From: Candidatus Omnitrophota bacterium
GTDB lineage: Bacteria > Omnitrophota > Gorgyraeia > Zapsychrales > Zapsychraceae
Direction: 5' to 3'
NCBI GenBank assembly: GCA_015233195.1
Contig: JADFYE010000020.1
Location: 1 to 35,860, forward strand
Length of the DNA: 35,860 nucleotides
In this document: one piece after another, positions 9,034 through 35,282 of the stretch
Position numbering within the stretch: position 1 is the stretch's first letter
Layout: every line of letters starts with the position of its first letter
The notes under the pieces: generated by a model
Told to the model about the DNA's origin: nothing
Database searches by the model: none
The model's input: the letters and a program-made list of their open reading frames with translations, nothing else
Position numbers and translations under genes: made by a program

Positions 9034-9071
9034 TTTTAAAGTATGCTAACTAGTATTAGGAAGAAAAAAAT

Positions 9072-12679: not shown

Positions 12680-12686
12680 GGATTTT

Positions 12687-14344: not shown

Positions 14345-14353
14345 GAAAAAATC

Positions 14354-15739
14354 ATGAGTGAACATCAAAATATAGAATATAAACAAATTTGGCATGATGA
14401 TTATTTAAAATGGGTTTGTGGTTTTGCTAATGCGCAAGGTGGGTTAATTTATATTGGTAAAGATGATAATGGTAAGGTGGTTGGTGTTGAAAATTATAAA
14501 AAATTAATGGAAGAAATTCCTAATAAGATTCATGATTTGCTTGGTCTTATTGTAGAGGTGAATCTAAAGAAAAGTAATTCACTTAATTTTATTGAAATTA
14601 TAGTCCCGGAGTATTCAGTGCCTATTTCATGCCGTGGGAGATATTATTATCGAAGTGGAAGCACAAAACGAGAATTAACGGGTAGCGCGCTTAATGAATT
14701 TTTACTTAAAAAAATGGGTAAAACTTGGGATGAGGTTATTGAATCTAGGGCAAAATTATCTGATATTGATAAGAAAAGTATTGAGATATTTTTGAAGGCT
14801 GCAGCTAAAGCTAAAAGATTTCCCGTTGATGAAACGCTATCGTTAAAGGATTTACTTGTAAAATTACAGTTAATTGATAAGGGAAAATTAAAACGCGCTG
14901 CTGTTGTTTTATTTGCTAAGGAGCCGATGAAGTTTTTTCCTTCGATGTGTGTACGGATAGGTCGTTTTGGAGAATCAAAAGTTGATTTGAGATTTCAGGA
15001 ATCTATTGAAGGTAATTTGATCCATTGTTTACAAGAAACAATCGAATTACTCGACCATAAATTTTTGATCAGTCCAATTTCTTTTGAAGGTATTCATAGG
15101 ATCGAGAAATGGCAATATCCGCTTCCGGCATTGCGCGAGGTATTACTTAACGCGCTTATTCATAAAAATTATATGGGAGCGCATATTCAGATTGAAGTTT
15201 ATGACGACAAAATTTGTTTTTGGAATAGTGGAGGATTGCCGGAAGATTTAAGTATTGAACAGTTAAAAAAGCAGCATTCTTCAAATCCGCGAAATCCTTT
15301 TATTGCTGATGTATGTTTTAAAGGCGGGTATATTGACGCTTGGGGACGAGGGATTGAGAAAATCATTAACGCGTGCAAGGAAGCCAATCTTCCTGCTCCT
15401 GAATTTGAAGAAAACAGTGGGGGCATGTTAGTTACGCTTTTTTATAGCAGGTCTAAAAAAGATAGATCGGGACAAGAGCCAGAGTCGCAGCCAGAGTTGC
15501 AGCCAGACTCACAGCCAGAGTCATTAAGAATGCGTGTTTTAGGGTTATTGGGAAAAAGTGAGTTAAGTAAATCCGGTATTTCTATACAGCTTGGTCAGAA
15601 GAAAATTTCTGGGCAGTTAAATGTGGTAATTCGTAAGTTATTAGAACAAAAATTTGTTGAGTTAACCATCCCTGGTAAATTAATAAGCCGCAATCAAAAA
15701 TATCGTTTAACAGAAAAAGGTAAATTATTAATAAAGTAA
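14354..15739 (+). CDS. AlbA_2/Schlafen-type putative DNA-binding protein with HATPase-like domain
   Basis: A 461-residue protein. An AlbA_2 (Schlafen-like) domain spans about 5-115 (IEYKQIWHDDYLKWVCGFANAQGGLIYIG), then a HATPase_c_4-type domain with ALREVLLNALIHKNY and GGYIDAWGRGIEKI (about 255-350), then a linker of QPES-type repeats, then a C-terminal winged helix. These proteins are usually annotated as putative transcriptional regulators or RecG-like; function is not settled. It sits between cysW and cysA, where no such gene is expected, with 9 and 10 base spacers. That suggests insertion into an existing operon without breaking it. Confidence 0.85.
   Translation: MSEHQNIEYKQIWHDDYLKWVCGFANAQGGLIYIGKDDNGKVVGVENYKKLMEEIPNKIHDLLGLIVEVNLKKSNSLNFIEIIVPEYSVPISCRGRYYYRSGSTKRELTGSALNEFLLKKMGKTWDEVIESRAKLSDIDKKSIEIFLKAAAKAKRFPVDETLSLKDLLVKLQLIDKGKLKRAAVVLFAKEPMKFFPSMCVRIGRFGESKVDLRFQESIEGNLIHCLQETIELLDHKFLISPISFEGIHRIEKWQYPLPALREVLLNALIHKNYMGAHIQIEVYDDKICFWNSGGLPEDLSIEQLKKQHSSNPRNPFIADVCFKGGYIDAWGRGIEKIINACKEANLPAPEFEENSGGMLVTLFYSRSKKDRSGQEPESQPELQPDSQPESLRMRVLGLLGKSELSKSGISIQLGQKKISGQLNVVIRKLLEQKFVELTIPGKLISRNQKYRLTEKGKLLIK
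15476..15523 (+). repeat. Four-unit 12-base in-frame tandem repeat (QPES linker)
   Basis: Four imperfect copies of a 12-base unit close to CAGCCAGAGTCG, at 15476-15487, 15488-15499, 15500-15511 and 15512-15523. Each encodes a four-residue variant of QPES. The repeat lies in the linker between the HATPase-like domain and the winged helix of the AlbA_2-type protein. Copy-number change would lengthen the linker without shifting frame. Confidence 0.9.
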
Positions 15740-15749
15740 GGTTTGAGAT

Positions 15750-16808
15750 ATGAGTATTGAAGTCAAAAATATACGCAAAAATTTTGGAGATTTTCAGGCT
15801 TTGCAGGATCTCAGTTTAAAAGTTGAGTCAGGCGAGCTTTTAGCGCTTTTAGGTCCTTCTGGTTCAGGAAAAACTACTTTGCTAAGAATTGTAGCAGGGC
15901 TGGATTCAGTTGATCAGGGACAAGTGCTTTTCGAAGAGCAGGACGCTCAGCACCAAAAAGCTAGAGAACGCGGAGTGGGATTTGTTTTTCAGCATTACGC
16001 GTTATTTAGGAACATGACAGTTTTTGATAATATCGCATTTGGTCTGAAAGTACAGCCTCGACGGATACGCCCTACAAAAGCTAAGATCCGGCAAAAAGTT
16101 CTTGAATTGTTGAATTTGGTTCAGTTAGAATGGCTGGCTGATCGTTATCCATGGCAATTATCCGGAGGACAGAGGCAGCGTATTGCTTTGGCGCGTGCGC
16201 TTGCAGTCCGTCCTAAAGTTTTACTTTTGGATGAGCCGTTTGGTTCGCTCGACGCTCAGGTCAGAAAGGAACTTAGGCTTTGGCTGAGACGTTTTCATGA
16301 CGAGTTTCATATAACCACTCTTTTTGTGACACATGATCAGGAGGAGGCTTTGGAAGTTGCTGACCGGATAGTAGTCATGAATAAAGGTAGGATCGAGCAA
16401 GTAGGAACACCTGAAGATGTTTATCATAATCCAGCAAATCCGTTTGTTCTTAGTTTCTTAGGTAACGTAAATTTATTCCATTGCCGTTTGGCAGAGGGAA
16501 AAGCTTTTATCGGAGATTCTGCGTTGGATGTTCCAGGTTTAGTATTAGATCAACCTAAGACGGCAAAATTATATGTGCGTCCTAATCAGTTTAAGATTTC
16601 CCGTGGTCCGGGTAAAGGCGACGCTTTAAAAGCAATGGTTGAATATGTTAATCCTGCAGGAATTGTAGTTAAAGTGAATTTGAAGACTGAGAATGGCGAA
16701 CGGATTTATGTTGAGATTTCGCACGATGAATTTAATCACCTCAGGCTCATGAAATCGCAACAGGTGTATGTGAGTTTAAAAGACGTCACGTATTCGGAAT
16801 ATGTATAA
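15750..16808 (+). CDS. cysA: Sulfate ABC transporter ATPase CysA
   Basis: A 352-residue ATPase of the CysA/PotA type. Walker [10 protein letters not shown] is at 35-43, the Q-loop is VFQHYALF, signature LSGGQ at 137-141, Walker B LLLDEP at 158-163, and the switch histidine is in [11 protein letters not shown]-terminal TOBE-like domain follows (from about 240). It powers sulfate import through CysT/CysW. The 3' end overlaps the next gene by 8 bases, so the partner-switching genes may be partly co-transcribed with the transporter. Confidence 0.95.
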
Positions 16809-21848: not shown

Positions 21849-23162
21849 ATGAAGCAATCTGATAAAATTGAAGTCATTGTGGTTGGTGCAGGACCGGCAG
21901 GTTTGGCTTGTGCGTACACTTTGGCTAAAGCCGGAGTTGAAGTTTTAGTGTTGGAACGGGGAGAACATCCTGGCGCGAAAAATATGTTTGGCGGGATATT
22001 TTTTTCCAGTATCATGGAAAAGTTTTTTCCGGATTTTTTATCTGATGCTCCTTGGGAACGTTTTGTGGGTAAAAGAAAATTCGCGCTTCTGACTGGTGAC
22101 AGTGAGATGACGTTTGAAATGAGTCCGAGTACTTTTAATCGTCCGCCGTTTAATCATTCTTTTATCGCTAAGCGCGGTCAGATGGACCAGTGGTTCGCTA
22201 AAAAAGTTGAAGAGGCTGGCGCTAGTATTATACCGAATTATTGTGTGCGGGATTTTTTGTACGAGCATGGAAAAGTGGTTGGGATTACCAGCGGCGGTGA
22301 TGATGATAGTTTTTTAGCAGATTGTATTGTATGCGCCGAGGGTGCTAATTCGCTTTTAACTGAAAGAGCAGGGATGCGTGAAAAGATCGGACCAGATTAT
22401 CGGTCGATCGCGGTTAAAGAAAATATTCGTTTTACGCAAAGTGTTATTGAAGATCGTTTTGGCGTGACTGGACAGCAAGGTGCTGCTTATGAATATTTCG
22501 GATCATCAGTTAAAGGGCTGTTAGGGAATGGCTTTATTTATACCAATCGTGACAGCATTTCTGTAGGCGTGGGATTTTCGATTAATGATTTTATAAATCT
22601 TGGCAACAAAAAAACGCCGAATGATATTTTGGATGAATTTAAAGCGCACCCATCCATAGCGCCTTTGGTACGCGGCGGTGAAACTGTGGAATATATGGCG
22701 CATATGATACCGTCTGACGGATATACCCGTTTGCCTAAATTTTATCGAGATGGATTGCTTATTGTCGGAGACGCGGCTGGTCTGATTAACGCATCGTTTT
22801 TTCATGAAGGGGTTAATTTGGCTATGGCATCAGGGATTGCGGCAGCTGAGACTATTATTGAAGCGCGGAAACAAAAGGATTATTCTTCTGAGAATTTATC
22901 TTGTTATGAAGACAAACTGAATGCGAGTTTTATTTTGCAGGACTTGAAAAATTCTAAGAATTTCCTTGGGTTCTTAAAAACGCATAAAGCGATCATCAAT
23001 GAATATCCGGCGATGATGAATGATATTTTGGTCGAGTATTTCACTGTTTCTGAAAAACCTAAGACCATGATTAAAAAAGAAATTTTTAATCGGGTTAGAA
23101 AAACTGTGAATATTCCGAAAATGGCAGGTGATATGTGGGGAGCTTGGAGTAATTTGATATGA
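21849..23162 (+). CDS. fixC: FixC/ETF-quinone-oxidoreductase-like flavoprotein
   Basis: A 437-residue FAD protein of the FixC/geranylgeranyl-reductase superfamily. The dinucleotide-binding GAGPAGLACAYTLAKAG is near the N-terminus, followed by VLERGEHPGAKNMFGGIF, typical of FixC, and the second FAD motif GLLIVGDAAGLINASFFHEGVNLAM. FixC passes electrons between an electron-transfer flavoprotein and quinone, with FixX. FixA and FixB are not encoded nearby. Its stop overlaps the fixX-like start (ATGA). It is co-oriented with the magnetosome-type genes downstream. Confidence 0.88.
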   Translation: MKQSDKIEVIVVGAGPAGLACAYTLAKAGVEVLVLERGEHPGAKNMFGGIFFSSIMEKFFPDFLSDAPWERFVGKRKFALLTGDSEMTFEMSPSTFNRPPFNHSFIAKRGQMDQWFAKKVEEAGASIIPNYCVRDFLYEHGKVVGITSGGDDDSFLADCIVCAEGANSLLTERAGMREKIGPDYRSIAVKENIRFTQSVIEDRFGVTGQQGAAYEYFGSSVKGLLGNGFIYTNRDSISVGVGFSINDFINLGNKKTPNDILDEFKAHPSIAPLVRGGETVEYMAHMIPSDGYTRLPKFYRDGLLIVGDAAGLINASFFHEGVNLAMASGIAAAETIIEARKQKDYSSENLSCYEDKLNASFILQDLKNSKNFLGFLKTHKAIINEYPAMMNDILVEYFTVSEKPKTMIKKEIFNRVRKTVNIPKMAGDMWGAWSNLI

Positions 23163-23476
23163 CAGCTGATACATTAGTTAAGAATGTTACTCATGGGTCA
23201 AAAAAACTTTCTTTGGAAGATAAACTTTTTTTGGTTAAGACCAAAAAAGATAGTATTAGTCATATTACGATCAAGCATAAAAAATGTCAGAGCTGTTCTA
23301 ATAAGGTGTGTTTGAGGATTTGTCCGGCAAATACTTATGAAGAACGCGACGGTAAGATCGAAGCTGCTTATGAAAATTGTTTGGAATGCGGCAGTTGTAA
23401 AGTAGCTTGTCCGCATGGAGCGATAATTTGGGAAAATCCTCGAGGAGGTTTCGGGATAACATTTTTAAACGGATAA
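23159..23476 (+). CDS. fixX: FixX-like ferredoxin
   Basis: A 105-residue ferredoxin-like protein. Cysteines lie in CQSCSNKVCLRICPANTY and CLECGSCKVACPHGAIIW; the second CxxCxxCxxxCP run is a standard [4Fe-4S] ligand set, while the first is altered as in FixX. It ends with ENPRGGFGITF, typical of the family. It would transfer electrons to or from the FixC-like protein. It is translationally coupled to fixC and lies 19 bases before mamI. Confidence 0.88.
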   Translation: MTADTLVKNVTHGSKKLSLEDKLFLVKTKKDSISHITIKHKKCQSCSNKVCLRICPANTYEERDGKIEAAYENCLECGSCKVACPHGAIIWENPRGGFGITFLNG

Positions 23477-23495: not shown

Positions 23496-23666
23496 ATGGC
23501 ACATGTAATAGGCGGGGCGATCGCAGTAGTTTTAGGAGTTACAGGAATTATTGGTTGGTGGGATAATTTTGGCGATTTTTTACGTGGAGGAATTCCTCTC
23601 GCGCTTTTTATCGGTGGTCTTATTGCGGTTAATACTGGTCTGAAATTTTTAAAAGAAAAGAAATAA
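23496..23666 (+). CDS. mamI: MamI-like magnetosome membrane protein
   Basis: A 56-residue protein with a good Shine-Dalgarno (AAGGAG) and two transmembrane helices (about 2-20 and 31-49). The pattern of a glycine-rich first helix, WW, a short loop ending in FLRGGIPLALFIGGLIAVNTG, closely follows MamI of magnetotactic bacteria (WWW, then FLRGAVPVALLIFGLVA as I recall it). MamI is needed for magnetosome membrane formation or crystal nucleation, depending on the species. It lies directly upstream of a MamE homologue, which supports the identification. Confidence 0.85.
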   Translation: MAHVIGGAIAVVLGVTGIIGWWDNFGDFLRGGIPLALFIGGLIAVNTGLKFLKEKK

Positions 23667-23924: not shown

Positions 23925-25301
23925 ATGTTAGACGAAAATAGAGATGACTTTTGTAATCAGCCGATAGGTCCATGGATCATTGGGATTATTGTCCTTTCAA
24001 TCATGCTGGTCTTTTGGATCGTAATGAAACGCGAAGATATTATGCAGAGCGTTGAAATGGAACAACCTGCTCCTCCTAAAATTAAAATGCCTATTCCAGG
24101 AGAACCTATTTTTCCAAAAGGGGTAACGCCTGCTGCTTACCGTGCTCCGGTTGATACGAATTATAAAGTCGCTGCTATCACTAAAGCAACTCCGAACGGC
24201 GGCATGCAGTTGGTGGCTAATCAAACCAATGGCGGCGGATTTCAAAACTCTTTAAAAGATGCAGTTAATATTATTATTCCTTCAGTATGCGACGTGCATG
24301 CCCGCAGAGTGGTTCGTGCTGTAAATAAAAAAGCGGTTGACGCCCAGAATTTAAAATTTGTTCCGCCTTTTGATGGAGTCATAGATAAATTTGTTGCGAA
24401 TAAAGGGTATGAGAATATTGGTGCAGGGATTTTTGTTGACCAACGCGGGTATGTGTTGACTAATTATCATGTGACTCAGGAAGCAACAGATATTGTGGTA
24501 ACAGTTTTTGGTCCGCCTTCGCAAGATTATCCGGCTGAAATTGTTGCCAGCGACCCGGTAAATGATTTAGCGATAATTAAAATCAAAGGTGATGGTAATT
24601 TTCCTGAAGTGCAGATTGGTGATTCCAGTTTTACTCAGGTCGGTGATTATGTAGTAGCAGTGGGAAGTCCTTTTGGTATTGAGCAGACTGTGACCAGCGG
24701 GATTATAAGCGGGATCCGTAAATCTATTGTTATCGAGGGTGTACGTTATCAAAATTTGTTTCAGACTGATACTCCGATTAACCGTGGTTCATCCGGCGGT
24801 CCTTTAGTTAATTTAAAAGGCGAGGTTATTGGTATAAATACTGCGATTTACGCTCCAACTGGAGTTTTCAGCGGTACTGGGTTTGCGATACCGATCAATG
24901 ACTGCAAAGATTTTTTGGCTGCAAATCTTGGAAAAAATTATTCTGTTCCAGTTGATCAAAGGGGTATGATTGCGCCTAACGTGATGGATTTAACTAAAAC
25001 TCCAAAAGGACCGATCCCGATACATTTTGGTCTTGAAGTTATGCCGGTTAATGATGTTATTGCAAAACAGTTTGGTATAAGCGAGCATCAAGGGGTTTTG
25101 GTTAATCGGGTTTTGGACGGTGCTTCAGCAGATGTGGCAGGTATTCAGCGAGGAGATATCGTAGTAGCTGTAGCAGGCGTGCCGGTAAAAGGAATGGATG
25201 ATATTCCTAAAATTGTCGCGCATTTTAAAACTGGTGACAGTGTTAATGTCCGTATTTTGCGTAATGGTAAAACCGACGAGATTTTAGTGAGATTGCAATG
25301 A
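23925..25301 (+). CDS. mamE: MamE-like membrane-anchored trypsin-type protease with PDZ domain
   Basis: A 458-residue HtrA-type protease. A transmembrane anchor (16-34) precedes a long proline-rich linker, a trypsin-like domain with intact triad H182 (TNYHV), D214 (NDLAII) and S290 (NRGSSGGPLVN), and one C-terminal PDZ domain (about 365-458). MamE is a magnetosome HtrA protease that processes other Mam proteins and promotes crystal maturation; in several species it also carries magnetochrome CxxCH motifs. None is present here (CDVH at 122-125 is not one). Context with mamI and magnetochrome proteins favours MamE over plain DegP. Confidence 0.82.
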   Translation: MLDENRDDFCNQPIGPWIIGIIVLSIMLVFWIVMKREDIMQSVEMEQPAPPKIKMPIPGEPIFPKGVTPAAYRAPVDTNYKVAAITKATPNGGMQLVANQTNGGGFQNSLKDAVNIIIPSVCDVHARRVVRAVNKKAVDAQNLKFVPPFDGVIDKFVANKGYENIGAGIFVDQRGYVLTNYHVTQEATDIVVTVFGPPSQDYPAEIVASDPVNDLAIIKIKGDGNFPEVQIGDSSFTQVGDYVVAVGSPFGIEQTVTSGIISGIRKSIVIEGVRYQNLFQTDTPINRGSSGGPLVNLKGEVIGINTAIYAPTGVFSGTGFAIPINDCKDFLAANLGKNYSVPVDQRGMIAPNVMDLTKTPKGPIPIHFGLEVMPVNDVIAKQFGISEHQGVLVNRVLDGASADVAGIQRGDIVVAVAGVPVKGMDDIPKIVAHFKTGDSVNVRILRNGKTDEILVRLQ

Positions 25302-25894
25302 AAGCAAAAGTGAATTCAAAACTTACGTTTAAACAAATCCAAAGGCAAATTAATGATTTTGCTAATAATAAGCCTTGGCATTTAGCTGGTATTGGCGCAG
25401 CAGTATTTATTGGTTTATATTTGATATTATCATTTTTATCAGCTGCAGAATTTTTTCCTGAACCTCAAAAGCAGCCAGTGCAAAGGGCTATGGTTTTTGA
25501 AAAAGGCGACAGCATGATGTGGATCGATATGGAACTGGCTCCTGTTTCAAGGAGTATCAGAAAATCGTTTAAGATCCCAGGTAATATTAAGGGAATATTC
25601 GTCATTGATGAAGGTAAATCATCAGCGCAACAATATGGAGTAAAGACTGGGGATGTGATTGTTTCTATTGGACGTAAACCAGTTCCTTCTGCACGTGAAT
25701 TTATTAAAGTGGCTAACCGTGTGCAATATTCAGACGGAATTCTTTTAGATATTTATCGCGATGGTAATCAGTTGTATATAACCATTCCATTTGCGTATCA
25801 ATATGGTCCGCTTATGGGACCGAATAAGGGAAGTTGGCAGCTTGGTTCACCGGTGGTCGGACAAGCGTTTAGATATGGTCCAATAGTCAGATAA
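25298..25894 (+). CDS. Membrane-anchored PDZ protein of the magnetosome-type cluster
   Basis: A 198-residue protein with one transmembrane helix (about 29-48) and a single PDZ domain (about 72-170). The domain opens with WIDMELAPVSRSIRKSFKIPGNIKGIFVIDEG, the same layout as the PDZ domains of the MamE-like and MamP-like proteins in this cluster. There is no protease domain and no CxxCH heme motif. It resembles a MamP without its hemes and may be a scaffold for redox partners. It overlaps mamE by 4 bases (ATGA). Confidence 0.8.
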   Translation: MKAKVNSKLTFKQIQRQINDFANNKPWHLAGIGAAVFIGLYLILSFLSAAEFFPEPQKQPVQRAMVFEKGDSMMWIDMELAPVSRSIRKSFKIPGNIKGIFVIDEGKSSAQQYGVKTGDVIVSIGRKPVPSAREFIKVANRVQYSDGILLDIYRDGNQLYITIPFAYQYGPLMGPNKGSWQLGSPVVGQAFRYGPIVR

Positions 25895-25903: not shown

Positions 25904-27493
25904 ATGGTAATACGTACTCACATAAAAAAACATACGCCTACTTTTGAAGAGATCTCTACAAAAGTAAAAAATGCTGATTTAAATACTTACTTTATTTTTG
26001 GCGCTATTATTATTGTTTTAATAACTGGTGTGTACGCATTATTCGCTCCTGAATCTTCTAATCCAGTTGTTGGAAATCCGGCATGCGGAAAAATCGTAGT
26101 TGCAACTAATGGTCCATCTTTGGCTTCAAAAGTTTCTGCTACTCTACCTGAAGCAAGTTATTTTTTGGTAGTAAATCCTTTATCAAAAAGGTTGGTTGAA
26201 TCAATTCAGAATCCTTATCGTGGTAAAGTTCCGAATCCGCAAATTGCTTATTTGATTGCAGGTAAAGGAGAAGAAGCAGTTATTGTCGGAAGTATTGACC
26301 AGCAAAGTTATAACATTTTTAATCAATTTAGTATTCGGGTGTTTGGCGGATATCAAGGTCAGGCAAAAAAAGTTGTTAGTCTTTATCGTAAAGCCCGGAT
26401 TGGGCAAATGGCTCGTCCAACTCCGACTACAGTAAATGTTTTGCCAGGTGCTCAAATGGGACAAGGTCATGCGCAAGTTGCTTTTGGTCAGGCAAGATTT
26501 AATTATGCTTGTCCAAGATGCGGGCAAGCTGCTACTAGCCAAAATTATAATGGAGTAGGTTGTCCGGTTTGTCCTAATTGCGCGATCCAAATGACACAAC
26601 GAGATATAACCCAGCAAACTATGATTTTAGGACAGCAAAATCGTCAAGGTATGCGGGTAAATCAGCCATATTGTCCGCTTCCAAATGTAATGGACGGTGG
26701 TTTACTGCAAAATGGTATGGGTCTTCAGGCTGGCGCGCCGCAGCAACAGGTTGGCACTCAGGGTGGAGTGCAGGCTGGTGTAGCAATTCAGGAAGTTTAT
26801 GCTAAGGGTGTTATGGATGGACTTAGTATGCGAAATAATTTTAATGGTGGTATGCAGGCGGCTTTTGGTTTTGGTCCACAAAAGCAGGCTTTTGTTTGTC
26901 CGGTTTGTAATTGGAGGATGAAAGCTGAACGTCAGGGAAATAATTTTCCAGCTTGTCCGAATTGCGGATCACCAATGGCTTTAGATATGTCGAAACAAAA
27001 TCAAGAAGCTGCTACGCCTTTGGCTGAAGGATTGTTTGCTGCAAATACAGTGCCGATGAATCAGCAGGTTAATCCTATAAATAATCAAGTGAATAATCAG
27101 TTGCAGGTTTTTCCGGGACGAGAAATAACGCAAGGTTTCCAATGTCCGAATTGTAACTGGCGGATATATTCAAAACAAGGGGCTAATGATTTTCCTCAAT
27201 GTCCTAATTGCGGACAAATTATGGCGCGTGCCGGAAAGAATTTTCAAACACAAAATACTCAAAATGGCGTGTTCGCGAATCAAGTAGCGTTGCAGCAAAA
27301 TTATCAAACAGCACCTGCACAGGGGAATGTAAATGCTGCGCCTCCGATATCTCCGGATGCTCCAATGCCTCACGAATATCGAGGAGAATGTTCAAATTGT
27401 CATCAGTTTTTATCGCCAGCAGCTGGACAGGTTCAGAATAACGCGGTCGCAGATCAAGGCGTCGCGCATGTAGGGATAGGAAACAATAAATGA
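25904..27493 (+). CDS. Membrane protein with NifX/NafY-like domain, three CxxC-pair ribbons and one magnetochrome motif
   Basis: A 529-residue protein of unusual architecture. One transmembrane helix (29-47) is followed by a domain (61-165) resembling the NifX/NafY/NifB-C-terminal cofactor-binding fold (CGKIVVATNGPSLASKV, then ASYFLVVNP). Then come three ribbon modules with paired CPxC motifs (C203/C206-C223/C226, C332/C335-C351/C354, C414/C417-C433/C436), like zinc ribbons or rubredoxin knuckles, separated by glutamine/asparagine/glycine-rich linkers. Near the C-terminus lies a magnetochrome-type heme site (DAPMPHEYRGECSNCH, CxxCH at 496-500). I infer an iron-handling or electron-transfer role outside the cytoplasm. 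No named family covers the whole protein to my knowledge. Confidence 0.8.
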   Translation: MVIRTHIKKHTPTFEEISTKVKNADLNTYFIFGAIIIVLITGVYALFAPESSNPVVGNPACGKIVVATNGPSLASKVSATLPEASYFLVVNPLSKRLVESIQNPYRGKVPNPQIAYLIAGKGEEAVIVGSIDQQSYNIFNQFSIRVFGGYQGQAKKVVSLYRKARIGQMARPTPTTVNVLPGAQMGQGHAQVAFGQARFNYACPRCGQAATSQNYNGVGCPVCPNCAIQMTQRDITQQTMILGQQNRQGMRVNQPYCPLPNVMDGGLLQNGMGLQAGAPQQQVGTQGGVQAGVAIQEVYAKGVMDGLSMRNNFNGGMQAAFGFGPQKQAFVCPVCNWRMKAERQGNNFPACPNCGSPMALDMSKQNQEAATPLAEGLFAANTVPMNQQVNPINNQVNNQLQVFPGREITQGFQCPNCNWRIYSKQGANDFPQCPNCGQIMARAGKNFQTQNTQNGVFANQVALQQNYQTAPAQGNVNAAPPISPDAPMPHEYRGECSNCHQFLSPAAGQVQNNAVADQGVAHVGIGNNK

Positions 27494-27600: not shown

Positions 27601-27834
27601 ATGGAACCATTTTCAATGTTAGGAGTTGTGTTGTTGTCAGTAGCAGCAGGGGCGATGTTGTCAATGGTTTCTAAGAAACCCAATGCGCCTGATAGTCAAG
27701 CACCAAATAATGTTGCGCCTGAAGAGCAGCCGCAGCAGCAAGAAATGATTTCCGAATATATTGAAGAAAAAACGCCTGGAGTTATAGACGCTGAAAAAGA
27801 AAAAGCAATTGACGAATTAATTTCCGGCAATTAA
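27601..27834 (+). CDS. Small membrane protein with acidic tail
   Basis: A 77-residue protein I do not recognise. A single N-terminal helix (about 5-23, MLGVVLLSVAAGAMLSMVS) is followed by an acidic, glutamine-rich tail (EEQPQQQEMISEYIEEKTPG). Acidic tails on small magnetosome membrane proteins are known to interact with iron or crystal surfaces, for example Mms6; similarity to those is only in general character. An exceptional Shine-Dalgarno (AGGAGGGGAT) adjoins the ATG. It sits between the hairpin region and the zinc-ribbon membrane protein. Confidence 0.75.
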   Translation: MEPFSMLGVVLLSVAAGAMLSMVSKKPNAPDSQAPNNVAPEEQPQQQEMISEYIEEKTPGVIDAEKEKAIDELISGN

Positions 27835-27850
27835 ATAAAGAGGAATGAAT

Positions 27851-28117
27851 ATGGCAATTACTAAACCAATAATTTGTACACTTTGTAACGGCGAGATGCA
27901 GCTTTATACTGGACCACGTTATAATAAAAAAGTCAGCGGAGGTATGATCATTGGCGGTATTTTCGCTACTTGCTTTTGGATTGGCGCGGTTTTAGGAATC
28001 CCGTTAATTATTGCTGGTTTATATATGACTGGTTCTAAACGGCATTTGTGGGTTTGTAAAGATTGTAATACTGCGATTGAACGTGTTGAAATTAACCCTG
28101 AAAAATTGTCAAAATAA
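27851..28117 (+). CDS. Two-helix membrane protein with split zinc ribbon
   Basis: An 88-residue protein with CTLC (C9, C12) at the N-terminus and CKDC (C69, C72) near the C-terminus, bracketing two transmembrane helices (about 31-61). The two CxxC pairs would meet on the same membrane face to form a zinc-ribbon or rubredoxin-like metal site. ATG 27845 is possible, but it lies only 1 base from the GAGG ribosome site, whereas ATG 27851 has a 7-base spacing, so I chose the latter. Function is unknown; it is embedded in the magnetosome-type operon. Confidence 0.78.
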   Translation: MAITKPIICTLCNGEMQLYTGPRYNKKVSGGMIIGGIFATCFWIGAVLGIPLIIAGLYMTGSKRHLWVCKDCNTAIERVEINPEKLSK

Positions 28118-28128: not shown

Positions 28129-29295
28129 ATGCCAAATCAAATTAAAAAATATCATCAACAGCGGATGCAGAGATTTCTGCTGGTCATTACGCTTTTCATT
28201 ATCGGCATTTTCTTTTTAGCTGCCTTAATGCATGTAGGCGCTGGCGATGCTGAATGGGGCGGGATGTCTGTATCTAATGCTACACCAATGATGATGATGG
28301 AACATAATATTCCAAAAGATGAACAGGGTGTGGTCGTGGACTGGTGCGAAGATCCGGCTTATTCCGCAGGTGTTCGAGCAGGTGATCTTTTAAAAGCTAT
28401 CAATAATAAACGGATTAAAAATTTATCGGATTTTTTAAAAGTTACTAAAGCAACTAATTTAAAACCAGGCGCGCTTTTAGATATTTTACGTAATGGTCAG
28501 CCGCTTTATATTACGATGGAAAATAAAGTTGGTATTCATGACCAGCTTAAAAAATCGTTGAATATTGATATGGGAGTAACTGGCACAGAAGGAACAGCCA
28601 GTATTCCTGCAAAAGTATCTTCAACTGCTCATAATCAAATGACACCGGTTGCTTTTGCGAATCGCTCACCTGCAGAAACTGCTGAAGCCGGAGTAATTGG
28701 CGCAGCTCCTAATAATCCCAACATGTCTTTGCCTACGCCTAAAGAACAGGGCGCAGCTACCAAAGAATTGATTGAAGGGCATTGGCTTGGTATAGAACTT
28801 ATTCCGTCAACGCCTGAATTAGCAAAAGAATATCAGATACCGCCTGACATTAAAGGGCTTTTGGTGGATGAAATTTCTCTTGAGTCAGCAGAATCAGGAA
28901 TATTGGCAGGAGATATGGTCGTAGCAGTTGATGGTGTTTCTACGCCGGACTTGGTCGCGTTTACTGAAGCTACGAGATTAGTTAAGAATAATTATAAAGC
29001 TAAGATTTTAGTTTCCCGTAGAGGCAAATTAATGGAATTTACGATTTCTTCTACCCGGACTATAGGATTTTCACAAAATGAGGCAGCTCAACCGATTACT
29101 CCAGGGGCGTTAAGCCCGCATCGCAGCAGGAATAAGCCTTGTACTACTTGCCATATTATTATGCTGACCGGCGGTCAGCTTCCCACAGATGCGGGAGATA
29201 TTTTACCAAATCCGCCGCCGATAGTTAAAGGCGCGGTTGCTCCTCATGAATACCGAGGGAAATGCAAAACGTGTCACCTTATCTTGAAAAAGTAA
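28129..29295 (+). CDS. mamP: MamP-like protein with two PDZ domains and two magnetochrome motifs
   Basis: A 388-residue membrane-anchored c-type cytochrome. A transmembrane helix (15-36) is followed by PDZ 1 (about 42-132), an alanine/proline linker, PDZ 2 (about 216-308), and two magnetochrome modules: PITPGALSPHRSRNKPCTTCH (heme ligands at 338-342) and KGAVAPHEYRGKCKTCH (379-383). MamP of cultured magnetotactic bacteria has one PDZ and two magnetochromes and acts as an iron oxidase that tunes the Fe(II)/Fe(III) ratio. The duplicated PDZ is unusual. Covalent heme attachment requires cytochrome c maturation, and tetrapyrrole genes follow directly. Confidence 0.82.
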   Translation: MPNQIKKYHQQRMQRFLLVITLFIIGIFFLAALMHVGAGDAEWGGMSVSNATPMMMMEHNIPKDEQGVVVDWCEDPAYSAGVRAGDLLKAINNKRIKNLSDFLKVTKATNLKPGALLDILRNGQPLYITMENKVGIHDQLKKSLNIDMGVTGTEGTASIPAKVSSTAHNQMTPVAFANRSPAETAEAGVIGAAPNNPNMSLPTPKEQGAATKELIEGHWLGIELIPSTPELAKEYQIPPDIKGLLVDEISLESAESGILAGDMVVAVDGVSTPDLVAFTEATRLVKNNYKAKILVSRRGKLMEFTISSTRTIGFSQNEAAQPITPGALSPHRSRNKPCTTCHIIMLTGGQLPTDAGDILPNPPPIVKGAVAPHEYRGKCKTCHLILKK

Positions 29296-29297
29296 AA

Positions 29298-29774
29298 ATG
29301 ACTTCAAAAATTAATAAGCAAGCGGATGCTGCATACTTGCCGATCTGTATTGATATAAAAGGAAAAGAGTGTTTGGTTGTAGGCGGTGGTAATGTAGCAT
29401 TAAGGAAAATCACAGTATTAAGGAAATTCGGGGCAGCAGTAACATGCATGAGCCCCTTTTTTGTTAAACAGTTGGAACGTCTTGCGGATTTGGAAAAGAT
29501 CAAATGTATTAAACGGGTTTATCCGTTGACATTATCGTTAAAAAAATACGCGTTGGTTATTGCTGCTACTGATGATTCGGATGTAAATAAACAGGTAGTT
29601 CGAGATGCTGTACGGGATAAAATTTTGGTGAATGTGGTTGATAAAAGCGCTCCGGGCAATGTTATTATGCCAGCGATTTTGAAACGTAAAGGTTTTACTA
29701 TTAGTGTGTCTACTGGGGGACGCAGCCCAAGTCAGGCAAAAAAAATAAGGGATACTTTGAACCATGCTTTATAA
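29298..29774 (+). CDS. Met8/CysG-N-type precorrin-2 dehydrogenase / sirohydrochlorin ferrochelatase
   Basis: About 158 residues. The opening YLPICIDIKGKECLVVGGGNVALRKI holds the NAD-binding site, followed by VIAATDDSDVNKQV and NVVDKSAPGNVIMPAILKRKGFTISVSTGGRSP, all typical of siroheme synthase. It oxidises precorrin-2 and may insert iron to give siroheme. It is a short form, similar in length to YlnF-type enzymes. I prefer ATG 29298, just after the mamP stop; an upstream in-frame ATG at 29262 would overlap mamP by 34 bases and add 12 residues not seen in the family. It supplies siroheme and, with Ahb-type steps, heme. Confidence 0.9.
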   Translation: MTSKINKQADAAYLPICIDIKGKECLVVGGGNVALRKITVLRKFGAAVTCMSPFFVKQLERLADLEKIKCIKRVYPLTLSLKKYALVIAATDDSDVNKQVVRDAVRDKILVNVVDKSAPGNVIMPAILKRKGFTISVSTGGRSPSQAKKIRDTLNHAL

Positions 29775-30549
29775 TTTAATGTTTTTTTATGTTTGCATGT
29801 TTCTTTATCTGGTAGGAACAGTGTTGTCTGTCATGTCTTTTTTAAAGAATGATAACGCTTTGTTTGGTTTTGCAAAACAATGGTTTATAGTTGCGATAAT
29901 TTGCGGTGTGTTTTTCTTTTTTATCCGTTATCGGGAATTTGCGTATGTTCCAATGGTATCACTTTTTGAAATCACGTTTTTTTATGCCTGGCTTTTGAGT
30001 GTGGCGTATGTTTTATTCGTTAAGGAGTCTGCTGGACGGATAATTCAGGGTTTAGCACTGGTGATTTTTGACAGCCTTTTGGTTTGGAATATGTTTATGG
30101 ATAAAATATATCATCCAATAAATCCGTTGTTGAGAAGTTTCTGGCTAGTGATCCATGTGCCTTCGATAATATTAAGTTACAGCGCGTTTGGAATATCTTT
30201 TGCAGTCAGCGTTTATTACATTTTTGCGGATATAAATAAAAAAACTGTTAGTCATTTGGATAAATTTAATAGCGGACTTATTCTGGTCGGAACAATATTG
30301 TTGGGATTTGGAATTGTAACTGGTTCGATTTGGGCGCATTCAGCGTGGGGAAATTATTGGAGCTGGGATCCTAAGGAAACTTGGGCGCTGATAACGTTTA
30401 TCATTTACGGTGTTGCAGTATTGCTACGAAAAATTTTTAAAATAAAACCGTTTTGGGAAGCAGTTGTTTCAGTCTGTGGATTTTTAGCCATGCTGTTTAC
30501 ATTTTTTGGTGTGAGTTTATTAATGGTCAGTCATCATGCGTATAAATAA
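29764..30549 (+). CDS. CcsA/HemX-like cytochrome c assembly membrane protein
   Basis: A 261-residue protein with about eight transmembrane helices and a clear tryptophan-rich WWD motif (AHSAWGNYWSWDPKETWAL, about 190-208), the heme-handling signature of CcsA/ResC. Family members export heme and attach it to CxxCH cytochromes together with CcsB/ResB, which is not seen here. HemX, a relative found next to hemA in other bacteria, is the alternative. The position between mamP, a c-type cytochrome, and hemA fits either role. It overlaps the previous gene by 11 bases. Confidence 0.88.
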   Translation: MLYNLMFFYVCMFLYLVGTVLSVMSFLKNDNALFGFAKQWFIVAIICGVFFFFIRYREFAYVPMVSLFEITFFYAWLLSVAYVLFVKESAGRIIQGLALVIFDSLLVWNMFMDKIYHPINPLLRSFWLVIHVPSIILSYSAFGISFAVSVYYIFADINKKTVSHLDKFNSGLILVGTILLGFGIVTGSIWAHSAWGNYWSWDPKETWALITFIIYGVAVLLRKIFKIKPFWEAVVSVCGFLAMLFTFFGVSLLMVSHHAYK

Positions 30550-30558
30550 GAGGTAAAT

Positions 30559-31554
30559 ATGCAGTTAGTTTTGATCGGAACCAGTCATAAAAAAGCGCCG
30601 CTTGCCATGCGGGAGAAATTTAGTTTTTGCGGCGAGAAGCTTGAGCAATATTATGCCCGGCTTAAGGCTTATCCTGAGGTGAGTGAAGTATTTCTTTTAT
30701 CTACTTGCAACCGGGTCGAACTTTATGCAGTAGGGTCGGATCCTTTAATTGTGGCAGAACGGCTTAAAGAATTTTTAAATGAAGTTCATGGGATACATTC
30801 AGCAGCTTGGGACGAGCATTTTTATACTCGTATAGATAAAGAAGCTTTGGGGCATCTTTTAAGAGTTGCGAGCGGTTTAGATTCAATGGTTATTGGAGAA
30901 TCAGAAATCATTGGTCAGATCAGAAAAGCATATGATCAAGCTTGCGCTTCTGGAGCTATCGGTACATATCTGCATAAAACTATTCAGGATTGTCTTCAGA
31001 TCGGGAAAAAAGTAAGAAGTTTAACTGGTATTTCTCGTGGCGTAACTTCGCTTTCAGGTGTGGTCGTGGAATTGGTTAAAAAACAATCTGACCTTAAAGA
31101 TAAAAAAGTTTTGGTTATAGGCGCAGGAAAGATCGGCGCTATGACAGTTGTTAAATTAGCTGACTTGCCTATTGGTGAAATTATAGTTATGAACCGCGAT
31201 ATGGCTCGTGCGGCAGAATTGGAAAATATCTCTAATGTGCGGGTTGCGGATATTCAAAAACTTTATAATGAAATTTTTTACGCGGATATTGTTATTGCTG
31301 CAACAGCTGCATCTGAATATCTTTTAGACCGCGCTTTGATTGAACAATTGTTTCTTACCAGAAAAAATAATTTACTTTTGGTTGATCTTGGCGTTCCCCG
31401 CAATATTGAAGAAACTACTCGTGATATCCCCGGAGTCTGCCTTTATAACATTGATGATTTAGCGCCGATAGTTGATGAGACGATCCGTAACCGGACTTTG
31501 GAAGCTGAAAAAGCTGAAGAAATCATTCAAGGCAAATTGGCATCTGGCATGTAG
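30559..31554 (+). CDS. hemA: Glutamyl-tRNA reductase, short form lacking the C-terminal dimerisation domain
   Basis: A 331-residue enzyme that reduces glutamyl-tRNA to glutamate-1-semialdehyde, the first committed step of heme synthesis. The catalytic cysteine C50 lies in LLSTCNRVELY, followed by ASGLDSMVIGESEIIGQIRKAY and the NADPH site VIGAGKIGAM. HemA is normally about 410-450 residues. Here the frame stops after AEEIIQGKLASGM, just where the C-terminal dimerisation helices should begin. Catalytic and NADPH domains are complete. The stop lies about 50 bases before a structured repeat. It may be a natural short form or a 3' truncation. Confidence 0.9.
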   Translation: MQLVLIGTSHKKAPLAMREKFSFCGEKLEQYYARLKAYPEVSEVFLLSTCNRVELYAVGSDPLIVAERLKEFLNEVHGIHSAAWDEHFYTRIDKEALGHLLRVASGLDSMVIGESEIIGQIRKAYDQACASGAIGTYLHKTIQDCLQIGKKVRSLTGISRGVTSLSGVVVELVKKQSDLKDKKVLVIGAGKIGAMTVVKLADLPIGEIIVMNRDMARAAELENISNVRVADIQKLYNEIFYADIVIAATAASEYLLDRALIEQLFLTRKNNLLLVDLGVPRNIEETTRDIPGVCLYNIDDLAPIVDETIRNRTLEAEKAEEIIQGKLASGM

Positions 31555-31606
31555 CATGTGGTATGTATGGGTAGAGAAAATAGCAAATTTTTAAATGAAA
31601 AGTCGT

Positions 31607-31753
31607 AGGTATTGAAGCGGACGTTGATAATTCGAGCGGGCATGGTTCGTGCGCGAAGCGAACGAGAGCGAGAATTATCTTCGAGCGCAGTTTAACTCGC
31701 AGGGGTAAACAAGAGTTCCGCGAAATGCCGAAGACTTTTAATAAAAATTTGCC
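31607..31753 (+). repeat. Structured intergenic repeat, copy 1 (upstream of hemC)
   Basis: A 147-base element repeated at 35295-35441. Predicted stems: GCGGA (31617-31621) with TCCGC (31717-31721); GATAATTC (31626-31633) with GAATTATC (31672-31679); an inner hairpin TCGT-g-CGC-GAA-GCG-a-ACGA (31647-31665); and GTTTA (31690-31694) with TAAAC (31706-31710). It ends 26 bases before the hemC ATG. It may be a leader RNA or a dispersed palindromic element. No protein assignment is made for the antisense frames. Confidence 0.85.
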
Positions 31754-31779
31754 AACTATATTAGGACAAGACATAAAAC

Positions 31780-32670
31780 ATGCGAAAAATAGTTTTTGGT
31801 ATACGAAAAAGTACTTTAGCTCGCAAGCAATTAGATGAGTTCATCACCTATCTCGTAAAGAATAAAATAATTTTTGACTACTCGATAAAAACTATTCAGA
31901 CCGCAGGTGATAAAGATCAAAAGTCTTCGGTCACCCAAATGGGTCAGGGGATATTTACTAAAGAGATTGAACGCGCGATTTTAAATAAAGAGATTGATTG
32001 CGCGGTGCATAGTTTGAAAGATATGCCGGTCAAAACTGAAAAAGGAACTGTGCTGACGTTTTGCGGCTCTAGGGAAGACGCGCGGGATTGTCTGGTCGCG
32101 CGGGAAGGTATTTCTGCAAATGATTTGAAAGGTTTACGGATTGGTACAGGCAGTCCGCGGAGGAATGCATTTTTAAAAGAGCTAGAACCTACAGTTAAAA
32201 TATTACAGATCAGAGGGAATGTTGATACCCGCTTGCGTAAATTGTATCAAGGCGAATATGACGGCATTGTTCTTGCAGCTTGCGGTTTAAAACGTTTGGG
32301 TTATGCGGATCGGATCAGCTGTTATTTTGATGCTGATACATTTATTCCTGCTGCAGGGCAGGGTGTGGTTTGTAGTCAGACCAGAGATAATGATACAGAA
32401 TTGAATGAGGTACTCAAGCATAGTGTTTCGTCTATAACTGAACAAGTTGTATTTGCGGAAAGAAAAGTTTTGGAAGCTTTGCAAGTCGGGTGTCAAACTC
32501 CGTTTGGCGTGTATGCGCGTTTTGAAGATGATACTTTTATAATAACTGCCAAGCTATTTGTAGAGAGTAGCCAGACTTTTATATCCGAACGTCGAACGTC
32601 TAATAAAAGTGATTTCTTAAAAGCAACTGATCAATTGATTAGTAGTATGAAAAGTAAAATTCATGTCTAA
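31780..32670 (+). CDS. hemC: Hydroxymethylbilane synthase (porphobilinogen deaminase)
   Basis: A 296-residue cytosolic enzyme that polymerises four porphobilinogens into hydroxymethylbilane. Motifs are QGIFTKEIERAIL, CAVHSLKDMPVK, IGTGSPRRNAFL, IRGNVDTRLRKL and GQGVVCSQTR. The dipyrromethane cofactor cysteine is C238 in VGCQTPFGVYA. Length is normal. Its leader carries the structured repeat ending 26 bases upstream. The 3' end overlaps the CobA-HemD gene by 8 bases. Confidence 0.96.
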   Translation: MRKIVFGIRKSTLARKQLDEFITYLVKNKIIFDYSIKTIQTAGDKDQKSSVTQMGQGIFTKEIERAILNKEIDCAVHSLKDMPVKTEKGTVLTFCGSREDARDCLVAREGISANDLKGLRIGTGSPRRNAFLKELEPTVKILQIRGNVDTRLRKLYQGEYDGIVLAACGLKRLGYADRISCYFDADTFIPAAGQGVVCSQTRDNDTELNEVLKHSVSSITEQVVFAERKVLEALQVGCQTPFGVYARFEDDTFIITAKLFVESSQTFISERRTSNKSDFLKATDQLISSMKSKIHV

Positions 32671-34165
32671 TAAAAACAAATTCGGAAAAGTATTTTTGGT
32701 TGGTGCGGGACCAGGAGACATCGGACTCATCACTGCCAAGGCGATAGCTTGCGTTCAGGCTGCAGATATTATTTTGTACGATAAGCTGATTGATAAAGAT
32801 ATATTAAAATATCGCAAATCCGGCAGCATCATAGAATACGTTGGAAAAGAAAAAGGCAAAATGTTTCAGCAAGAAGGGATCAATGATCTACTTCTGGAAT
32901 ACGCGCGTACTGGTAAAACTGTGGCACGGCTCAAAGGCGGCGATCCATTTATTTTTGGTCGCGGTCAGGAAGAAATGCTTTTTTTGAAAGAACACGGTAT
33001 TGACTGTGAAGTCATTCCAGGCGTAAGTTCGTTTTACGCTGTGCCAGAATTGTGCGGCATTCCGCTTACACATCGGGATATATCAAGTGGATTTATGGTC
33101 TTAACCGGACACGAAAATCCAAATAAAATTGTTGAAAATGTTGAATGGAAGCATGCAGCTAAATTTAATGGCACAATCGTGATTATGATGGGGCTTTCTA
33201 ATTTAGCAGAGCTTACAGGCAAACTTATCAAATACGGCAAAAGCGCTAAAACTTTGGCTGCTGTGATCGCGCATGGGGTAACACCAAAACAAAAAATTGT
33301 CATTGGTACTATGGGTGATATTGCGAAAAAATCCTGTGAGCTTACTTCACCGGCTATATGTGTAATCGGAGATGTAGTTAAGGTGGGTTTTTCGTTAAAT
33401 CCTGACTTAAAACCGCTTTTAAATAAACATTATCTTTCTACAGCCAGTGAAGATCTTAACCGCGATATGAATGCGATTTTAAAACAATGGGGTGCAACAC
33501 TTGACTGTTTGCCTATGATACGCATTGAAGAAAATAAAGATACTGTTTTATTGGATCAAATTATTTCTGATGTGAAGAAATTTGATTGGTTGGTTTTTAC
33601 GTCAAGGCATGGGGTTCAATATTTTTTGAAGCGATTTGCAGCGTTAAAAGGGAAAATGAATGCGCTTAATGGGCGGTTGGCTTGCGTAGGTACTGGTACA
33701 GCTCGTGAATTTACAAAATGCGGAATACAGCCTGATTTAATGCCTGCGATATTCACGACCAAAGATTTAGGTTTAGCGCTTTTAAAACAAGGTATATCTG
33801 GAAAAAAACTTGCTTTGATCCGAACCAAAATGGATACAGATCCATTAAAGAAAATGTTGAAAAAATCTGGTGCAGATATTACAGATTGTTTTGCATACAA
33901 TGTTGCGGATACGAATGATACTGTTGCGCTTAAAAAAGCAGTTACAAGAAAATTAGACGGTATTTTCTTTTTAAGTCCAAGATCAGTTAGAGTGTTTTTT
34001 GAACTTATGCCGGAAAAAGATTTGAAGCGTGTAAAAAAAGAAATTTCATTTTTTTCAATTGGCACAGTCACGACCCAGGCTTTAAAAAAGCAGGGCGTTA
34101 AAATAGTCAAAGCTCCAAAAGAACATACAGTGCAGGGATTGGTAAACTTATGTTTAGGGGAATAA
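32663..34165 (+). CDS. cobA-hemD: Uroporphyrinogen-III methyltransferase / uroporphyrinogen-III synthase fusion
   Basis: A 500-residue bifunctional protein. The N-terminal half (about 5-250) is a SUMT-type methyltransferase with VGAGPGDIGLIT, GKTVARLKGGDPFIFGRGQEE, VIPGVSSFYAVPELCGIPLTHRD and MVLTGHE. The C-terminal half (about 258-500) is a HemD-type synthase (WLVFTSRHGVQYF, then GRLACVGTGTAREF, then FLSPRSVRVFF). It converts hydroxymethylbilane to uroporphyrinogen III and methylates it to precorrin-2, the substrate of the Met8-type enzyme encoded upstream. This fusion is well known in Firmicutes and other phyla. Confidence 0.95.
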   Translation: MSNKNKFGKVFLVGAGPGDIGLITAKAIACVQAADIILYDKLIDKDILKYRKSGSIIEYVGKEKGKMFQQEGINDLLLEYARTGKTVARLKGGDPFIFGRGQEEMLFLKEHGIDCEVIPGVSSFYAVPELCGIPLTHRDISSGFMVLTGHENPNKIVENVEWKHAAKFNGTIVIMMGLSNLAELTGKLIKYGKSAKTLAAVIAHGVTPKQKIVIGTMGDIAKKSCELTSPAICVIGDVVKVGFSLNPDLKPLLNKHYLSTASEDLNRDMNAILKQWGATLDCLPMIRIEENKDTVLLDQIISDVKKFDWLVFTSRHGVQYFLKRFAALKGKMNALNGRLACVGTGTAREFTKCGIQPDLMPAIFTTKDLGLALLKQGISGKKLALIRTKMDTDPLKKMLKKSGADITDCFAYNVADTNDTVALKKAVTRKLDGIFFLSPRSVRVFFELMPEKDLKRVKKEISFFSIGTVTTQALKKQGVKIVKAPKEHTVQGLVNLCLGE

Positions 34166-34166
34166 A

Positions 34167-35282
34167 ATGATACCTTGTTCAAAAATAATGAGGGGGGAGC
34201 GCAGCGTCCACAATGAACGTAAAACTGGACCGCTTTTTGTCTGGAACATTATAAGCAGGTGTAATCTTTTATGCAGTCATTGTTACCGTGATTCACAAGC
34301 CGGAATGCAAGTAGAAGATTTATCTGATAAAAAATGTTTGGAATTAGTCAGCCAGATCAAAGCAGTTAATCCGCCTATAGTTCTTTTGACCGGAGGTGAA
34401 CCTTTACTTAGGAAAAACATTTTTGAAATTATTAAAGAATGTAAAAAACAAGACCTTCGCGTCGGACTTTCTACCAATGGCACATTGATCAATCAAGCTA
34501 TGGCGCAAAAGATAAAAGCAGCAGATGTGGACTATGTTGGCATCAGTATTGACGGTAAAAAAGAGCATCATGATAAATTTCGCGGTGCTGTTGGCGCTTA
34601 TGATTCCAGCTGGGCAGGACTTAAAATATTAAATGAATTAGGCGTGAAAACCGGCGTGCGTTTTACTTTGACTGCACAAAACAGCGTTGATCTCATGGAT
34701 ATCTTGGATAAAACTGTGGCGAGCGGATGCAAGCGTTTTTGTTTATATCATTTGGTTTATGCTGGTCGCGCGTCTAAAGATCTGGATATGAAAGTCGAAG
34801 ATAAACGTAAAATTTTAAGCACTTTTTTCAAGAAGGTTAAAGTGCTGTCTAAAAAAGACCCAAGTTTTGATGTGCTGACTACAGATAATCCTGCAGACGG
34901 TATTTTCATGTCAACCATCATTGACGACGGAAAAGACGCGATGGATTGTATTATGGCGCATGGCGGTTGCTCAGCCGGCGATCGTGTGGTATATCTTGAC
35001 TCAACGGGCGATGTTTATCCGTGCCAATTTTTACGTGATCATTCTTTAGGAAACGTGAAAGATAAAACTTTTATGGAAATTTGGGAAGACCACAGTAATG
35101 AATTTTTACAGCAATTGAGAAATAAACAAGGTCTTTTGCAAGGCGTTTGCGGCGAATGCGCTCACAAAGGCATATGCGGCGGCTGCCGCGCCCGCGCCAA
35201 AGCATTTTACGGCTCATTATGGGCGCAAGACCCGGGATGCTACTTAAAAGAAATAGAGGTAAGACCGAAGCAAATTTTGTAA
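34167..35282 (+). CDS. Radical SAM/SPASM protein of the AhbC/AhbD/NirJ heme-synthesis type
   Basis: A 371-residue radical SAM enzyme. The cluster motif is CNLLCSHC (C32, C36, C39), followed by LLTGGEPLLR, GLSTNGTLI and ISIDGKKEHHDKFRG. The C-terminal SPASM region carries many cysteines (CIMAHGGCSAGD, YPCQFLRDHSLGNV, VCGECAHKGICGGCRARAK). AhbC, AhbD and NirJ share this layout and remove acetate or propionate side chains on the siroheme-to-heme or heme d1 routes. Placement in a heme cluster with a Met8-type enzyme and CobA favours alternative heme synthesis. Which Ahb step it performs cannot be told from the sequence alone. Confidence 0.85.
   Translation: MIPCSKIMRGERSVHNERKTGPLFVWNIISRCNLLCSHCYRDSQAGMQVEDLSDKKCLELVSQIKAVNPPIVLLTGGEPLLRKNIFEIIKECKKQDLRVGLSTNGTLINQAMAQKIKAADVDYVGISIDGKKEHHDKFRGAVGAYDSSWAGLKILNELGVKTGVRFTLTAQNSVDLMDILDKTVASGCKRFCLYHLVYAGRASKDLDMKVEDKRKILSTFFKKVKVLSKKDPSFDVLTTDNPADGIFMSTIIDDGKDAMDCIMAHGGCSAGDRVVYLDSTGDVYPCQFLRDHSLGNVKDKTFMEIWEDHSNEFLQQLRNKQGLLQGVCGECAHKGICGGCRARAKAFYGSLWAQDPGCYLKEIEVRPKQIL

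Follow-up and report, generated by a model that had tools for sequence, protein, structure and literature searches.

FmpB of Desulfovibrio magneticus RS-1 (first named MamP*, DMR_41100) and its homologue in BW-1 were described in 2014 as proteins of the order MCR1-MCR2-PDZ-NitroFeMoCo, where MCR denotes a magnetochrome (PMC3971196); MamP* was renamed FmpB in 2015 and has been studied genetically since (PMC4287615, PMC12748827). In 2025, fmpA and fmpB mutants with a predicted loss of the Fe-Mo domain were reported to have fewer, smaller and mislocalised crystals (PMC12748827); FmpA and FmpB were each found enriched on early magnetosomes (PMC12748827, PMC4287615). Magnetochromes are also found in the magnetosome proteins MamP (4jj0/4jj3), MamE, MamT and MamX, usually in tandem, either alone or with PDZ, protease or DUF domains (PMC3971196).

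The window analyzed here, a complete contig of 35,860 nucleotides from an Omnitrophota assembly of 1.98 Mb (77.6% complete), encodes a fusion protein, FUS, that is likewise a magnetosome-cluster protein with magnetochrome and NitroFeMoCo/NifX domains. An earlier note on this DNA knew of no characterised protein with this architecture, a statement that has to be corrected in view of RS-1 FmpB (PMC3971196, PMC4287615, PMC12748827). The comparative analysis described below indicates in which respects FUS departs from this relative.

Results

FUS occupies a conserved position between mamE and mamP

FUS is encoded within the following run of genes.

23496-23666, plus strand: mamI-like gene (NF040963, E=2e-13, under its 80-bit cutoff)
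23925-25301, plus strand: MamE-like HtrA protease with one PDZ domain and the motifs TNYHV/NDLA/GSSGGP, without CxxCH
25298-25894, plus strand: membrane-anchored single-PDZ protein, immediately 5' of FUS
25904-27493, plus strand: FUS (529 aa), between mamI-mamE-PDZ and mamP
27601-27834, plus strand: small membrane protein, kept in many loci
27845-28117, plus strand: 90-aa protein with CxxC knuckles flanking a hydrophobic hairpin, weakly LITAF-like, kept in nearly all loci
28129-29295, plus strand: MamP-like protein with an anchor, two PDZ domains and two magnetochromes (NF040965, E=5.5e-62, under its cutoff)

The order mamI, small gene, mamE, PDZ gene, FUS, small genes, mamP recurs in 16 of 16 named Omnitrophota loci, occasional small genes being undetected, with 579-708 bp from the end of mamE to FUS and 293-694 bp from FUS to the start of mamP. 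In 16 named Omnitrophota MAGs and on one Planctomycetota contig, a homologue lies at this position; some of the MAGs (for example nDJH6bin5, nHLHbin2 and MBPbin6) bear names of the kind used in published surveys of magnetotactic bacteria (PMC7602337, PMC5955933). FUS is present in 11 of 384 Omnitrophota genomes (in one of them at a contig end and cut), all within the 12 that contain a magnetochrome, two counts that are not independent, as FUS has a magnetochrome itself, although MamP carries others. For this reason, a Fisher value computed on the co-occurrence is not taken as proof. In L044 and L048, the cluster extends into relatives of MamM, MamB, MamA, MamQ and MamN.

Neither mamM nor mamQ was found in the window genome, which at 77.6% completeness might be taken to mean that FUS lacks a magnetosome role and has its neighborhood by chance. 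However, their absence is probably due to the contig ends and the incomplete genome, and in the same-genus genome G164 mamQ lies on the same contig. Given also the synteny in 16 loci and the restriction of FUS to genomes with magnetochromes, a chance neighborhood is so improbable that it hardly calls for consideration.

In 17 of 17 loci (L043-L059 among them), MamE retains the HtrA serine motif and is devoid of CxxCH, unlike canonical MamE with its magnetochrome pair (PMC3971196). Directly 3' of mamP, positions 29262-35282 encode CysG-N, HemA, HemC, CobA-HemD, an AhbC/NirJ-like radical SAM protein and CcsB. The presence of heme synthesis and cytochrome c assembly (CcsB) genes beside mamP is consistent with a local demand for c-type heme. 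This siroheme-dependent heme synthesis block, again with CcsB, also lies 3' of mamP in several family relatives.

Other features of the region were recorded as well. A FixC/FixX-like flavoprotein and a ferredoxin are encoded 5' of mamI (21849-23476); they are present in L033-L036 and L047 and undetected in other loci. Sulfate ABC transporter genes (substrate-binding protein, CysT, CysW-like and CysA-like) occupy 11639-16808, where an unrelated ORF (14354-15739) separates the second permease from the ATPase. The 90-aa, weakly LITAF-like knuckle protein (27845-28117) has a counterpart in the Planctomycetota locus L142 at 6909-7250.

Architecture and membrane anchor of FUS

The FUS reading frame (25904-27493) starts with ATG and encodes an anchor, a NifX-like domain, three ribbons within Q/N-rich linkers and one magnetochrome, in that order. 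This composition, proposed in the earlier note from the translation, was confirmed by Pfam, AF2 and alignments.

25904-25981, plus strand: N-terminal tail, residues 1-26, with five K/R, inferred to be cytoplasmic
25982-26047, plus strand: transmembrane helix, residues about 27-48 (hydrophobicity, AF2)
26084-26407, plus strand: NifX/NafY-like domain (PF02579), residues 61-168, with invariant NPACG, KGEEA and IRxF
26510-26581, plus strand: ribbon 1, residues 203-226 (CPRC...CPVCPNC)
26897-26965, plus strand: ribbon 2, residues 332-354 (CPVCNWR...CPNC)
27143-27211, plus strand: ribbon 3, residues 414-436 (CPNCNWR...CPNC)
27341-27415, plus strand: magnetochrome domain (PF18509), residues 480-504, with the heme motif CSNCH at residues 496-500 (27389-27403)

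The anchor has a Kyte-Doolittle value of 2.6 at residue 30 and is modeled by AF2 as a helix at 26-47. Because a short K/R-containing N-terminus is followed by a single helix and then by a c-type heme motif, the soluble part very probably lies outside the cytoplasm, as had been considered before; a c-type heme motif has to be loaded there. C-terminal to the core, the chain is rich in Q, N, G and A (13.9% Q, 11.1% N). In the full-length AF2 model, the anchor helix, NifX core and hairpins of the ribbons are modeled with confidence, while linkers and C-terminus mostly have pLDDT <50, a value range that covers about half of the protein; as the model is of low confidence elsewhere than in the NifX domain and the ribbons, no interdomain geometry is claimed from it. 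CPLP/CPIPN motifs recur in the Q/N-rich linkers (26672-26683; L053 and L054), ribbon-less homologues included.

The NifX/NafY-like domain retains the fold of its relatives and lacks their loops

PF02579 matches FUS at residues 75-162 with E=5.4e-5 and 23.9 bits, just under the 26.3-bit gathering cutoff, and is matched by 10 of 10 homologues of alignment A1 at E<=0.01. An AF2 model of the core, computed with 18 sequences, reached a pLDDT of 84.5 and a pTM of 0.79. Its best 15 PDB matches all belong to the NifX/NafY family, as had been predicted for residues 61-165; the matches include TM1290, TM1816, ORP (TM 0.77), PH0822, NifX bound to NifEN, MJ0327, the NafY core, Ta1041m and MTH1175, the last of which was also retrieved by a family profile search (E=1.5e-6). 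Residues 61-168 thus share the fold of NifX, NafY, ORP and small PF02579 proteins, but those proteins are soluble, whereas FUS is membrane-anchored and without the loops of its stand-alone relatives.

Free-standing NifX relatives in Omnitrophota share FGRC, GGAG and GNVGPNA loops. In the alignment, FUS carries LPEA, PNPQ and GSIDQQS in their place, and its core contains no conserved histidine and one conserved cysteine. With the loops replaced and the histidine missing, the domain therefore keeps the fold of its relatives and not their surface. Loop loss is specific to the FUS family, because a Planctomycetota NifX-ribbon protein (L144) retains FGR and a His-containing loop. Other positions are fixed: NPACG (58-62), KGEEA (121-125) and IRxF (144-147) are invariant in alignments of 10 and 18 homologues, and Cys61, just N-terminal to the first strand, is invariant across 18. 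This invariant alternative surface suggests a binding partner.

A fold shared with known or putative cofactor binders, the invariance of Cys61 and KGEEA in 18 homologues, and the magnetosome setting would all suit an iron-cofactor carrier, in which the NifX domain binds iron or an iron-sulfur cluster outside the cytoplasm and delivers iron or electrons to the crystal as it grows, the ribbons providing additional iron sites. Cys61 or the Glu pair could serve as an iron ligand. However, the replaced loops and the missing histidine, a loss peculiar to the FUS family, make cofactor carriage by this domain doubtful, and three homologues have no ribbons at all, so that we consider such a carrier unlikely.

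The CPxC ribbons resemble zinc ribbons and vary in number

Each ribbon comprises two CxxC knuckles over 23-24 residues (C203..C226, C332..C354, C414..C436) and forms a ribbon hairpin, the two features by which zinc ribbons are recognized. Profile matches include the acetyl-CoA carboxylase type zinc ribbon (E=1.7e-6), TiaS and HVO_2753, and Pfam lists a number of zinc-ribbon families with weak scores for the window protein. The rubrerythrin-type family RUBY_RBDX matches ribbon 3 weakly (E=0.0093, under cutoff), and structural matches to desulfoferrodoxin are short and non-significant.

Two candidate identities were rejected. A rubredoxin identity of the ribbons lacks profile support, as no rubredoxin family is among the matches listed and RUBY_RBDX on ribbon 3 stays under its cutoff. 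Ribbon 1 is also matched by HypA (E=1.2e-5, under cutoff), but only the ribbon is common to both, and the match is not read as a sign of a nickel chaperone.

Ribbon number, counted as CxxC pairs in 18 homologues, is three in the window protein, L043, L047, L049, L050, L051 and L052 (the last with a different arrangement), two in six homologues, one in L058 and L059, and zero in L053, L054 and L056; at least one is thus present in 15 of 18. Ribbon 1 is the least conserved, with a ribbon at the equivalent position in only six of the 18 (about a third).

The ribbons could alternatively hold Fe(SCys)4 sites in the manner of rubredoxin and relay electrons along the chain to the terminal heme. Two CxxC knuckles per ribbon, together with the weak RUBY_RBDX and desulfoferrodoxin matches, are compatible with such a wire. 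Against it, zinc ribbons match better, the knuckle spacing is shorter than that of rubredoxin, the linkers are disordered, and the number of ribbons ranges from zero to three while the heme stays, all of which makes an electron wire improbable. Of the two metals suggested previously for these sites, zinc is therefore favored by the family matches, and rubredoxin-like iron retains the weak rubrerythrin-type match of ribbon 3. The broader claim that each part of the protein points to iron was too strong, considering the zinc families and the lost NifX loops with their missing histidine.

The terminal magnetochrome is retained in nearly all homologues

PF18509 matches FUS with E=4.6e-9 and 36.1 bits (cutoff 30.4), the site fits the published magnetochrome pattern (PMC3971196), and a family profile search matches it to MamP 4jj0 (E=2.7e-8). 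AF2 confidence is low here (pLDDT about 35-50), as expected because heme is absent from the model. Naming FUS after MamP or MamT was rejected: it scores 26.5 of 300 bits for MamP and 24.7 of 200 for MamT, in the magnetochrome region only.

Magnetochromes are present in 17 of 18 homologues: L043 and L048 have a pair, L059 lacks the motif and every other homologue has one. L043 has its two at residues 466-513, in the repeat PHEYRGVC..PHPYRGIC, compared to one in the window (27341-27415). Judged from its sequence, this repeat would allow the loss of one unit, and since a same-genus homologue has two, the single magnetochrome of the window protein represents a local state. The Planctomycetota member L059 adjoins mamI-mamE and lacks CxxCH, which shows that a relative can do without heme. 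The expectation that homologues would carry CxxCH and lie beside mam genes thus holds for Omnitrophota, and this protein departs from it in the missing CxxCH.

The anchor and the NifX domain form the invariant core of the family. Across the aligned sequences, the conservation pattern (NifX core in 18 of 18, magnetochrome in 17, ribbon in 15) is not the product of chance.

Disorder in about half of FUS, the Q/N/G/A-rich composition after the core and the persistence of long repetitive linkers in ribbon-less homologues would also accommodate a structural or mineral-surface role, in which the tether, together with the ribbons, would build a matrix or a crowding layer on the crystal or among magnetosome proteins and the heme is of minor importance. 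Such a role is quite improbable in light of a magnetochrome that is retained in all but one homologue and doubled in two, and of the adjoining heme synthesis and CcsB genes.

The same modules occur in other combinations in Planctomycetota

Magnetochromes were detected in four of 392 Planctomycetota genomes searched, and in the loci examined from these no chain combining NifX, ribbon and magnetochrome was found. L144 encodes a transmembrane-NifX-ribbon protein (5608-6354, minus strand). In L142, a MamE-like gene is followed by a PDZ-ribbon protein and a protein with a transmembrane segment, two ribbons and one magnetochrome (8390-10031 together; the last at 9328-10031). PDZ-ribbon proteins are encoded near mam-like genes in both loci. 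Because these clusters combine the parts as transmembrane-NifX-ribbon, ribbon-ribbon-magnetochrome and PDZ-ribbon, the NifX, ribbon, PDZ and magnetochrome modules seem to belong to a single toolkit whose parts can be exchanged.

The L144 cluster (1-8505) comprises TauE-like, PDZ-ribbon, NifX-ribbon and small ribbon proteins, as well as a NapH-like (Mad6-like) protein, a triple-magnetochrome protein and two CDF-like proteins; the same genome holds the FUS relative L059. A second ribbon-magnetochrome protein is encoded in the Omnitrophota locus L040 (16848-17672, minus strand; 274 aa) with CATCP motifs, one ribbon, two magnetochromes and no NifX domain. ORFs of similar length with magnetochrome pairs are present in several other Omnitrophota.

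Discussion

The comparison of FUS with FmpB rests on the published description of FmpB, on fold and on gene context. FUS shares with FmpB the NifX domain, the magnetochrome and the location in a magnetosome cluster, and just as RS-1 fmpB adjoins the PDZ gene fmpA (DMR_41090; consecutive locus tags), FUS follows a PDZ gene. In contrast to FmpB, which contains a PDZ domain and has the order MCR-MCR-PDZ-NifX, FUS runs from anchor to NifX to ribbons (zero to three) to magnetochrome (one or two), and no PDZ match was obtained in its chain. FUS is not classed as FmpB, since the two were compared in domain order and PDZ content and differ in both. FmpA resembles FUS in its transmembrane anchor and Fe-Mo domain (PMC12748827), but contains three PDZ domains and lacks a heme site (PMC4287615), whereas the Omnitrophota PDZ protein is the product of a separate gene 5' of FUS. 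MamP, MamE, MamT and MamX share the magnetochromes, which FUS instead joins to NifX and ribbons, and the Planctomycetota proteins of L142 and L144 contain the modules without joining all three. Compared with FmpB, the novelty lies in the order of the domains and the presence of ribbons, in a PDZ protein that has its own gene, and in a MamE devoid of magnetochromes in every locus. FUS is a real and conserved new arrangement of an FmpB-like protein, and by analogy it may well work like FmpB.

The reading that we favor, at somewhat better than even odds, is that FUS is an Omnitrophota magnetosome component that acts like FmpB, as a redox or scaffold protein, in early magnetite formation, with a NifX domain for docking, zinc ribbons as spacers and a magnetochrome for redox chemistry. 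Synteny, architecture, fold, conservation, the heme-less MamE and the restriction to magnetochrome genomes form the observed layer of this explanation. That FUS takes part in forming the crystal and is redox-active is inferred from FmpB and MamP; the docking partners, the zinc in the ribbons and the reach of the tether are speculative.

In such a model, FUS would span the magnetosome (or cytoplasmic) membrane once, with its soluble part in the lumen or periplasm, and would be required for efficient early magnetite formation, by analogy with FmpB in RS-1. The NifX-like domain, about ten residues above the membrane, would most likely be a docking module, probably for the neighboring MamE and PDZ proteins, given that it has lost the glycine-rich and GPNA loops while a different surface (NPACG, KGEEA, IRxF) is fixed. 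The ribbons would act as small metal-stabilized spacers, probably with zinc, along a tether of about 330 residues that is disordered and Q/N-rich; ribbon number would be free to change while the rest of FUS is retained. The terminal magnetochrome would present one exposed c-type heme, which the tether could bring to the heme pair of MamP or to the crystal surface. By exchanging electrons, this heme would determine the ratio of Fe(II) to Fe(III) and would provide the heme sites missing from MamE in these loci. Following the analogy, FUS probably helps to control the oxidation state of iron during crystal formation.

A very improbable but more far-reaching variant would have the displaced NifX domain use Cys61 and the KGEEA face to bind an iron cofactor, with iron ribbons relaying electrons and the magnetochrome passing them to magnetite. 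If true, this combination of an iron-cofactor NifX domain, iron ribbons and a tethered magnetochrome would represent nitrogenase-cofactor machinery redeployed in biomineralization.

In RS-1, the role of the Fe-Mo/NifX domain rests on fmpA and fmpB mutants predicted to lose it. In the FUS family, from a phylum that branches deeply, the NifX domain is the part of a magnetosome-cluster protein that never varies, and PDZ, heme and ribbons are separable from it. Natural variants without ribbons (L053, L054 and L056) or without heme (L059) represent ready material for domain swaps. More generally, a MamE devoid of CxxCH in 17 of 17 loci indicates that magnetochromes can leave MamE altogether.
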